Part shown: in pieces, positions 1 to 3,916 of the stretch
Layout of the letters: the number at the start of each line of letters is the position of its first letter
How positions within the stretch are numbered: position 1 is the stretch's first letter
DNA from: Gemella massiliensis
GTDB lineage: Bacteria; Bacillota; Bacilli; Staphylococcales; Gemellaceae
NCBI RefSeq assembly: GCF_900120125.1
Contig: NZ_LT635545.1
Coordinates: 302,813-366,812 of the forward strand
Length of the DNA stretch: 64,000 nucleotides
Reading direction: 5' to 3'
Notes under the pieces: generated by a model
Told to the model about the DNA's origin: nothing
The model's input: the letters and a program-made list of their open reading frames with translations, nothing else
The model's database searches: none
Translations under genes and position numbers: made by a program

Positions 1-229
1 CACCATGAGATACCATAAGATCTGAACTGTGTGCAGTATCCGGAATTTCACGGAATGTTGTATCCCCTGCTAAGTTAAATCTTTTATCTGTTTTTAAGTG
101 AACTCCCGCAGCAGTTGCTAATGCTACTTTCATGTCTTTTAATTCTTTAGTCACTGGAGCCCAAACTGGTTTTGGTGTAATCGGTACATAAATCTCTGAT
201 TGTAGACCTTCAAATATCGTTAATGACAT
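1..229 (-). CDS. prdB: D-proline reductase 26-kDa subunit PrdB, N-terminal part
   Basis: The reading frame starts with ATG at 229 and runs off the left edge after 76 codons. It reads MSLTIFEGLQSEIYVPITP and continues through KRFNLAGDTTFREIP to LMVSHG, which matches the N-terminus of the selenoprotein subunit of D-proline reductase as I recall it. PrdB carries the catalytic selenocysteine at about residue 150, which lies outside this window. With PrdA it reduces D-proline to 5-aminovalerate, the oxidising half of Stickland fermentation. It is the last visible gene of the operon, 18 bp after the small 96-residue gene. A ribosome-binding sequence (GGAGAA) lies just upstream of the ATG. Confidence 0.93.
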   Translation of the reverse strand, partial: MSLTIFEGLQSEIYVPITPKPVWAPVTKELKDMKVALATAAGVHLKTDKRFNLAGDTTFREIPDTAHSSDLMVSHG

Positions 230-247
230 TCTAAATTCTCCTTCCTA

Positions 248-538
248 CTATTCTTCTTTTAGTCTTCTATTTTTTACTTCTTCTTGTAACTTTTTAGTAT
301 TTTTTATTGCATTTACATAATGTTCGTCAGGTTCTTCTGTTATAACTTCCGGATAGCTGAACAAAAAGGCAACTTCTTGACCTATTTGCACAGGATATTC
401 AGAAATCAACATTCTCATAGGAATTTTAAACTGCCCTAAACGTCCTTTAATATCTATCGTAACGCTGGCATCGTTATGATCAACTATTATCCCTTCGAAC
501 ACTCTTTCTGTAGACGCATATTTTAATTTTTCAATCAT
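248..538 (-). CDS. small conserved protein of the proline reductase cluster
   Basis: A 96-residue acidic and lysine-rich soluble protein lying between prdA and prdB. The N-terminal half (about residues 10-65) is predicted to be beta-rich, with alternating hydrophobic residues (VFEGIIVDHNDASVTIDI), like a small OB or SH3-like barrel. The C-terminal 25 residues are a charged helix. I recall a small family in clostridial prd clusters (CBO2463/CBO2479-type) with this size and position, but I cannot prove membership here. Being between the two catalytic subunit genes suggests a role in assembly or maturation of the reductase, which is inference only. No cysteine or obvious catalytic motif is present. 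Confidence 0.7.
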   Translation of the reverse strand: MIEKLKYASTERVFEGIIVDHNDASVTIDIKGRLGQFKIPMRMLISEYPVQIGQEVAFLFSYPEVITEEPDEHYVNAIKNTKKLQEEVKNRRLKEE

Positions 539-561: not shown

Positions 562-2511
562 TTAATCTTCTTTTTCGTAAATTTCTTGACGTTTTTTAGA
601 TTTTGGTAAAATTTGTTCGTTTTCTAATAGCTCTATTTTTTCTCCTGTAGCTTTTTCAATAACTTCTACGTTATTTAATTTAACATTAGGATTCCATTTT
701 CTTTCAGCTTTTTTTATTTCTCCGCCACCCATTTGTGTTTTAAGCATTGCTAAAGCACGGACAGCATCTTCTCTACATAATGTATTGTTTGAAAGAATTT
801 CGTTTTCAATACCTTGTTTAGATTTATTATTATCTACCATGGCTTTCATGTATTCGTTACCTACTACAAGAGCCCCTTGAACCGCAGAGTAAGTCATACC
901 TACTACAGACACTCCACGAGAACCGATTTGTTCAATATGTGATGCAAAGTCGATATGGTTGTTACCGAATCCTTCTGTTGTAACGATAGCACCATCAATA
1001 TCCATAGCTTCAATAGTCATACCTACACGTTTAGATACATAGAATTTTTCTGAGTTAGCTTGTGGAGATCCAACTAGTAATACCCCTACTAAGTCGATTT
1101 CTTCATCAGTCATCGCTTCTAAGATTAACGGTTCACGATAGTAATGACGAGAAGTTTCTTTTGAAGCTGGCCCGATACATGTTAGCGCATGGATACCACC
1201 ATCTAATACTTCTGTTGGAGCAAGCATAACCGGTAAGTTACCTAAGTCAACGTTAGGTTTAGCACCAAGTGTTCCTACCGGTTCTACCGGTAAAATCAAG
1301 TTATCGTGCATCGCACCTTGTCCCATGATTTCTTTAACTATCAACACTTTTTTATTTCCCGGATGACGATATTGTTCTAATTTAATATCACCAACTACCA
1401 AACTTTCATCATCTAATTCTTTAAGAGCTTTACGAATTTCTTCTGTAATATGGTCAAATGCTTTGTGAGCTGCCAATGGTCCTGGACGTTCCATGTTAGC
1501 TCCCGCTTTGATTGTTACTTGTCCTTTAATGAAGATTTCTCCTTTATCCGGAGCACCTGGACGGCCCCACATAATGTTACGATCCAATTCTCCTTCTGAA
1601 GAACCGAATTCCCCGATTTGAACTCCGTTAGCATCTGTTCCTGTAAGAACCATTACTACACCTTTAAGTTCACGAGTAACACCATGACCGATTTCTCCTT
1701 CTTCTTTAACCGCAATCGGTTGCACGTCCATTATTGTTTCACTGTATGTACCATACTGTTCAGGAGTGATGATTTCTAATTTAACATCCTCTACTAATTC
1801 TTCTGATTCAATAGCAGCTTTACATAAATCTTCCGGAGTTCCTAATACTAAAGTTGTACCTTTAATTTCTGTTTTTTCACCGAAGACTACTTTATCAATT
1901 TTGTAGTGTTTTGTTAAAAGAGAACGAATGAATTTTGGTTCACCTTCATGTTTTTCTTCTGCTTCTTTTTCTACTACTGTTTCTGTTTTAGGAGCTTCTA
2001 CAGCTTTTGTTTCTACTACTTGAGCAGGTGCTGCCGGTTGTGCAACCGGTGCTGCAGATTGCCCTGCAAAAGCTGATAGTGGAATTTCAAGGTTAATATT
2101 TTCACCTTTACCGATTTGTAGTTTGAATACTCCTGAATTTACCGGAGCTTGTGTTTGTTCTGCCACCACTACGGGAGCAGGAATCGGCTCTGCCACTACG
2201 CTAGCTTCTCCTACTACTACTTCTTCTTGTTTTTCTTCTGCTTTTTCTTCTTCTACACCTTGGACAGCATCAATGATATCCGGTGTAATTGGTATTAGAG
2301 CGTCTGTTGTTTTTGTTAATTTTGCTCCTAATACTTGTCCGATTGTTAATGCATTGTCTGGGAATGATAGTAACCCTGAATCTTCTAAGTCATCGAATAA
2401 CCCTGGATCTTCTAAGTTTTCAGGACTAATTACGATACCTTCCTCAGCTCTGCAACAAAATACCGCTTTGTCATTTAAGTGTTCTTTTGCAGTTTCTACT
2501 GTAATTGACAT
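562..2511 (-). CDS. prdA: D-proline reductase proprotein PrdA
   Basis: A 649-residue proprotein. In characterised enzymes the PrdA chain is cleaved at a cysteine, giving a pyruvoyl group on the new C-terminal subunit. Here that site is visible as HALTCIGPASKET, with Thr444-Cys445. Cleavage would leave a C-terminal piece of 205 residues (about 23 kDa), the size known for the pyruvoyl subunit. Residues about 85-195 form a linker rich in Ala, Pro, Val and Glu, with catalytic-type sequence on both sides. The segment NNHIDFASHIEQIGSRG is characteristic of the family. The gene follows prdC by 20 bp and has a good GGAGG ribosome-binding site at 2521-2525. Confidence 0.95.
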   Translation of the reverse strand: MSITVETAKEHLNDKAVFCCRAEEGIVISPENLEDPGLFDDLEDSGLLSFPDNALTIGQVLGAKLTKTTDALIPITPDIIDAVQGVEEEKAEEKQEEVVVGEASVVAEPIPAPVVVAEQTQAPVNSGVFKLQIGKGENINLEIPLSAFAGQSAAPVAQPAAPAQVVETKAVEAPKTETVVEKEAEEKHEGEPKFIRSLLTKHYKIDKVVFGEKTEIKGTTLVLGTPEDLCKAAIESEELVEDVKLEIITPEQYGTYSETIMDVQPIAVKEEGEIGHGVTRELKGVVMVLTGTDANGVQIGEFGSSEGELDRNIMWGRPGAPDKGEIFIKGQVTIKAGANMERPGPLAAHKAFDHITEEIRKALKELDDESLVVGDIKLEQYRHPGNKKVLIVKEIMGQGAMHDNLILPVEPVGTLGAKPNVDLGNLPVMLAPTEVLDGGIHALTCIGPASKETSRHYYREPLILEAMTDEEIDLVGVLLVGSPQANSEKFYVSKRVGMTIEAMDIDGAIVTTEGFGNNHIDFASHIEQIGSRGVSVVGMTYSAVQGALVVGNEYMKAMVDNNKSKQGIENEILSNNTLCREDAVRALAMLKTQMGGGEIKKAERKWNPNVKLNNVEVIEKATGEKIELLENEQILPKSKKRQEIYEKED

Positions 2512-2531: not shown

Positions 2532-3854
2532 TTATTTATTATTATGTAATTCTAAGCTTTTATAGCTTCTGTATAAATGATGGTCAGTGGCACGAAGTAC
2601 ATGGTCGGTACTATGATAAACTTTTACTCCTAACCTAGGAGCTACACCTGTCACGGTGTTGGTTCAATCTTGACAAGTACCAGTAATGACTGCTTTCGCA
2701 CCATCTTTTTTCATTTTCAATACTTTTTCCGCTTGTCCTGGGCAAATACCCGGTAATTCACAACGTAATCTACCGTTTTTATCCGGTTTCATACGTTTAC
2801 ACATTTGGACAGACACTACTTCAGCACCCATTCCGTCAGCAATTTGGCGAAGACGTTCTTCTTGTGCACCACATTCACAAATTAGTATTCCTACTTTCTC
2901 TCTTTCTTGTGGATATGGCATAGCCACTAGAAGACCACCGGTTGTTTTATTAATAGGATCTCCTTTTTGTGCCGGACGTCCCGTAAATGGTCCCCCACGA
3001 ACAATCTCTCCATGTGGGTTAATATAACCGCCGGCTTTTTCTATAAACACACTAATCGGTAATCCGATCGGTACATCTAAGAATATGCTTGGGTTATTTA
3101 CACGTCCGCCTACTGTAAGATCTTTGTCAATCAGCGGCTTATCTTCTTCTATTGCTTCCACTATACGCTTAATAGTCTCAACATTTGAGATAATTGCATT
3201 AGCTTCCAATGGTAATTGACCCGGTTTTAAAATCACGCCTAATGTTTCCCTAACAATAACACGTTCGTCTCCTGCTGGATACATATTAGGCAAGATTTTT
3301 ATACTAATATTAGGTTCATTTTTGCACGCTTTACCTAATGCATGCAATGCTTTACGATATTTTGTTTTTATCGCAATATATCCTTCTTTTGCGCCGGTTA
3401 ATTCAACAATATATTTCAAACCGCGTACAAGTTCTTCCGGATGTTCTTCCATAAACTTAACATTATGTCCTAAAATCGGTTCACATTCTGCTGCATTGGC
3501 AATAACATACCCACCCGGTATTTGTGCCGATAACTTAATTCCGGTAGGAAAGCCGGCTCCCCCAACTCCGACAATACCTGCATCTTTTATCTTTTGCAAC
3601 TTATCGTCAGTTTTTTCTAATCTCACATAGTCATCTGTTTGTTCTTTATCTAATTTTACAACGATATTCATATCGTTAATTTCTTCTACAACACCGGATA
3701 AACTAGTGTGAATATTAGCACCTAACCCATTGGGAGTAGCAACTAATTGACCACGTTTTACATGATCCCCGACATTAACAATAGCTTGACAAGGACCACC
3801 AACGTGTTGTTTTAGCGGAATATTGATTTTTTCAACATTATTAAACTCTAACAT
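2532..3854 (-). CDS. prdC: PrdC, RnfC-like electron-transfer selenoprotein (UGA read as selenocysteine)
   Basis: An RnfC-like flavin and NADH-binding protein that passes electrons to proline reductase. The conventional frame stops at TGA (2664-2666) after residue 396, but it stays open for another 43 codons to TAA at 2532-2534, giving 440 residues. Across the UGA the protein reads GTCQD-U-TNTVTGVAPRLGV, the Cys-x-x-Sec type of redox site I recall in clostridial PrdC. Right after the UGA, ACACC/GGTGT form a stem with a GTGACA loop, compatible with a bacterial SECIS element. Other visible features are GVGGAGFPTGIK near residue 97, AECEP near 122, and cysteines in ICECGAQ and GICPGQ. The start has an AAGGAGG site. 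It is the first gene of the operon. Confidence 0.9.
2630..2666 (-). promoter_or_regulatory. candidate bacterial SECIS element at the prdC UGA codon
   Basis: On the minus strand the UGA codon is followed by ACCA and then a five-pair stem, ACACC with GGTGT, closing a GTGACA loop that holds the GU typical of SelB-recognised loops. A second stem (CTCCTA with TAGGAG) follows. The small loop and its closeness to the UGA differ from the E. coli fdhF element, but clostridial SECIS elements are variable. This is a judgement from pairing by eye. Confidence 0.6.
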
Positions 3855-3916
3855 ATTTTTTCCTCCTTTCCTTAAAGATTATGAATAAGCAGTAGCATAA
3901 AACTCCTACTATATTT

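Follow-up and report, generated by a model that had tools for sequence, protein, structure and literature searches.

Does the prdC gene of Gemella massiliensis end at its first in-frame stop codon, or is that UGA read through as selenocysteine (Sec)? We analysed a stretch of 64,000 nucleotides of the genome (the window), which holds on its minus strand an open reading frame (ORF) of 396 codons that meets a TGA at 2666-2664, continues for 43 sense codons and closes with TAA at 2534-2532, just ahead of the prdA start at 2511. A sequence-only reading had proposed that PrdC is a selenoprotein whose UGA is read through, and that a conventional annotation would cut the protein at residue 396; its positions for the gene and the UGA and its residue number proved exact, and the 43-codon extension reaching almost to prdA was confirmed (Table 1).

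Table 1. Features of the prdC region, in positions of the window.
Feature	Position	Strand	Basis or remark
prdB, start	2..229	minus	TIGR04483; gene continues beyond the window, with its in-frame UGA there
Small 96-aa gene between prdA and prdB	248..538	minus	ORF call
prdA, D-proline reductase proprotein, LTCIG processing region	562..2511	minus	TIGR04480, 986 bits
prdC	2532..3854	minus	ATG at 3854; 440 residues with predicted Sec at 397; 396 aa if UGA is a stop
bSECIS-type hairpin GCUCCUAGGUUAGGAGU, GCUCCUA-GGU-UAGGAGU	2626..2642	minus	Apical loop AGGUU at 2636-2632
Second hairpin, nearer the UGA, ACACC-GUGACA-GGUGU	2644..2659	minus	Folds in the window; not conserved
In-frame UGA, predicted Sec codon of prdC	2664..2666	minus	Same site in 7/7 PrdC-bearing Gemella genomes searched
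Putative CxxU redox motif C394-Q-D-U397 of PrdC	2664..2675	minus	Translation; Cys homologues have CxxC
Shine-Dalgarno-like AGGAGGA upstream of the prdC ATG	3861..3867	minus	Sequence

The length of the extension says little when taken alone, because the window is AT-rich (30.9% GC), and of its 48 ORFs that reach 150 codons or more, six have an open run of at least 43 codons beyond their stop. We therefore rejected the open run as proof of read-through, and the same count is what speaks for the UGA being a real stop, with PrdC ending at residue 396 and the downstream frame a product of chance or a relic, an alternative that we nevertheless hold to be very improbable. Against it, the final 35 positions of the model for the family are matched by the tail: read through, PrdC matched positions 2-424 of the 425 of TIGR04481 (NCBIfam, PrdC; 599.7 bits), while the protein cut at the UGA matched only as far as position 389 (537 bits), so that read-through gains 63 bits. 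End-to-end coverage is obtained only with read-through, which supports the Sec reading, and the NCBI model already takes in the PrdC tail past the UGA.

We also compared the tail across relatives. PrdC occurs in 7 of 9 Gemella genomes, always in the Sec-type form with exactly one TGA, and the UGA is found at the same position in genomes outside Gemella. The named matches (Gemella bergeri, G. haemolysans, G. sanguinis, G. cuniculi and Gemella sp. GH3) bear out the genus that the sequence-only reading had suspected for the host. PrdC of the window shares 99% identity with its G. bergeri counterpart, and in the 33 codons that follow the UGA it differs from G. bergeri by two synonymous codons, from G. 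haemolysans by three and from G. sanguinis by five, with no non-synonymous difference in any of these pairs; the most distant family member differs by 13 synonymous and 5 non-synonymous codons. These counts indicate that the codons after the UGA are under purifying selection. With its extension, the C-terminus can be aligned to those of other PrdC selenoproteins, and sister species, rather than ending at residue 396, keep the codons that follow. Homologues without the UGA carry Cys at that position, or Phe in one paralogue, and never Trp, and the Cys-type homologues are translated through the same downstream stretch without a stop. A tail conserved as protein across the genus and beyond, with synonymous change only among close species, speaks against a real stop, and as an account of that tail this alternative is, on the sequences compared, already refuted. 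Conservation is the decisive evidence for read-through, the open run being weak evidence.

Two hairpins fold after the prdC UGA (z = −2.7), and the sequence-only reading had placed a stem with a GU-containing loop there. That hairpins exist held good; the nearest one, at 2659-2644, is not conserved, and it is the next one, at 2642-2626, that is. We rejected the former as the SECIS, since only 74% of its cells are paired among relatives and its loop starts just 9 nt past the UGA. The latter satisfies the published bSECIS rules (spacing of 16-37 nt, a G at the first or second position of the loop, a stem of at least 4 bp and an energy of at most −7.5; PMC13188914): its loop starts 27 nt past the UGA, its stem has 6-7 bp, its energy is −8.3 kcal/mol and a G occupies the second loop position. 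The window has 1960 TGA triplets, and by the same test 0.66% of them are followed by a hairpin as good. The hairpin is 100% paired in the alignment of relatives, with six of six stem pairs kept in all 14 Sec-type sequences compared, and the stem is broken in all 10 Cys-type sequences and in the one Phe-type sequence. It is identical, synonymous sites included, in every Gemella sequence compared, and this near invariance explains why just one compensatory change was seen, a U-A pair replaced by C-G in genome G131. A bSECIS-type hairpin is therefore both present and conserved near the UGA, where a search for one had been recommended. An Rfam scan of 2400-2800 gave no match to a SECIS family, as expected, since in bacteria these elements differ from one gene to the next. 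The peptide encoded at the hairpin reads APR(L/V)GV in Sec forms and APKLK, APQLK, APKLQ or APKLG in Cys forms, so that the SECIS seems to limit the choice of amino acids in PrdC as well.

The earlier claim that the organism has selA, selB, selC and selD was upheld for all four genes. selA (TIGR00474, 595 bits), selB (TIGR00475, 337 bits) and selD (TIGR00476, 376 bits) form one cluster at about C6:206.8-213.6 kb, which presumably also holds genes for a NifS-like and a YedF-like protein and one further small gene, all three named by eye. The tRNA-Sec gene (selC) lies at C6:40443-40535 (68.4 bits against a gathering score of 47; anticodon UCA by ARAGORN). Near it we observed a gene (L022 8611-10983, minus strand) for a protein in which rhodanese domains are fused to a glycosyltransferase domain of the TIGR04282 type and a C-terminus resembling a kinase. 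SelD has an in-frame UGA of its own (VCGG-U-NSKIG; L002 16539-17567, minus strand, G000:C6) with a hairpin after it, and so does PrdB (LTAG-U-GTCHR; L003 17042..16318; G000:C6:302319-303032, one TGA), so that, counting PrdC, the genome has no fewer than three genes that would need Sec. SelA was found in 9/9 Gemella genomes, and the two without PrdC encode a GrdB-like protein with one TGA. Outside the genus, one genome (G218) has no SelA match and carries Cys in both PrdB and PrdC, and another, of the same family but a neighbouring genus (G011), has only a fragment of SelA and a prdC that contains one TGA, one TAG and two TAA; the Sec codon thus goes with the machinery. In the latter genome (L037, L040), the prd operon and selA have decayed jointly, with prdC, prdA and SelA all reduced to fragments.

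The machinery also bears on the alternative that tryptophan and not Sec is inserted at the UGA, or that the read-through is non-specific. TGA is an uncommon stop in the window (2/42 long ORFs, prdC being one of the two), as such decoding would have it, but the absence of Trp from every homologue without the UGA, the conserved bSECIS hairpin, the full sel set with its tRNA-Sec(UCA), and the placement of UGA exactly at the CxxU of PrdC and the UxxC of PrdB make this reading as improbable as a real stop. That the UGA is a sequencing error, or prdC a pseudogene, is the least probable explanation of all: the broken prdC of the neighbouring genus speaks for it, but the same UGA in several independently sequenced Gemella species, a window prdC with no other disruption and an intact operon speak against it, and the sister genomes already refute it.

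Family coverage, conservation, the hairpin and the sel genes thus support the proposal that PrdC is a selenoprotein. The sequence itself shows the UGA, a coding tail conserved beyond it, the hairpin, the prd operon and the sel genes, and we consider prdC almost certain to encode a 440-residue selenoprotein, in which SelB and tRNA-Sec would decode the UGA as Sec under the direction of the hairpin at 2642-2626, with Sec397 lying in CxxU. The actual insertion of Sec in PrdC and its efficiency, as well as the path of electrons, are inferred. prdC is followed on the same strand by prdA, prdB and prdD (TIGR04482), together with a proline racemase homologue below the cut-off of its model. Downstream of the racemase-like gene in this Sec-type operon lie three tandem paralogous membrane proteins (L003 10682-13921, minus strand, G000:C6), which we take, by eye, to be of the TauE/SafE type. 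By family scan, PrdC is an RnfC/NuoF-like flavin and iron-sulphur protein, and following the electron path proposed for C. sticklandii PrdC (PMC3091704) it would most likely be reduced by NADH. PrdB, the Sec-bearing subunit of D-proline reductase and putative acceptor of these electrons, would be oxidised once D-proline has been cleaved to 5-aminovalerate, and the thiol-selenol pair of the PrdC CxxU would then reduce the selenide-sulphide bond in PrdB.

The same genome carries a second prd cluster outside the window (G000:C6:165001-170692; L021 7001-12692, minus strand), which encodes PrdA2, PrdB2, PrdC2 and a PrdD/E-like fusion with Cys at every selenium position. PrdA2 is 47% identical to the PrdA of the window and PrdB2, with the motif CGTC, is 56% identical to the Sec-form PrdB, while PrdC2 has CTDC. 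The all-Cys cluster also occurs in genomes G001 and G002; in the PrdC2 of the former (L013) the second Cys of CxxC is Phe (CTDF) and the rest of the protein is intact. A related all-Cys proline reductase operon was seen in another member of the Bacilli (G525; L113, L101), where it occurs together with genes for a proline racemase-like protein and an aminotransferase of the acetylornithine type; no SelB in this genome scored above the cut-off. A PrdC tree, from which two of the three Cys paralogues of Gemella dropped out as badly filled rows, is not used as an argument here. Paired Sec and Cys enzymes, with the Cys form serving when selenium is scarce, are known from some methanogenic archaea. 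We suggest tentatively, as a possibility that is on balance unlikely, that some Gemella species have two complete proline reductases, one Sec-dependent and one all-Cys, the second being used under selenium scarcity. The second cluster is possibly a selenium-independent isozyme; it adjoins a TrpX-like ABC transporter gene, a neighbour which may hint at another substrate. Cys homologues of PrdB were noted already in 2005 (PMC1088965).

On these results Gemella would have the whole selenocysteine system and would reduce proline in a selenium-dependent (Stickland-type) way. The genus belongs to the Bacilli, a class in which PrdB scored over its family cut-off in only 3/399 sampled genomes. Gene callers that stop at UGA would truncate PrdC, PrdB and SelD in these genomes. 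A search of open-access texts on selenocysteine, selenoproteins, selenophosphate or proline reductase in Gemella met with no account of selenoproteins in the genus, a silence that is weak evidence of novelty.

The Gemella PrdC belongs to an already published selenoprotein family. PrdC was described as a selenoprotein with CxxU in 2010, the Clostridium sticklandii protein being CLOST_2236 with Sec392 of 428 residues (PMC3091704), and PrdC form 1, of which CxxU is the published motif (PMC3091704, PMC13188914), is listed in prokaryotic selenoproteomes (PMC9312934, PMC13188914). With the C. sticklandii protein the Gemella PrdC shares the family model TIGR04481, the C-terminal CxxU and an operon with prdA and the selenoprotein gene prdB; it differs in that its host belongs to the Bacilli and is not a clostridium, and in that the Gemella genome also has an all-Cys prd cluster. 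With PrdC form 1 it shares the redox motif, the family model and a PrdB in the same operon, and apart from Gemella not being named in those two texts (PMC9312934, PMC13188914) there is no difference. The PrdC of Clostridioides difficile is of the same family and role and has Cys in place of Sec (PMC3091704), whereas the protein of the window has a predicted Sec and a SECIS hairpin, the latter missing from the Cys forms that we compared (C. difficile not among them by name).
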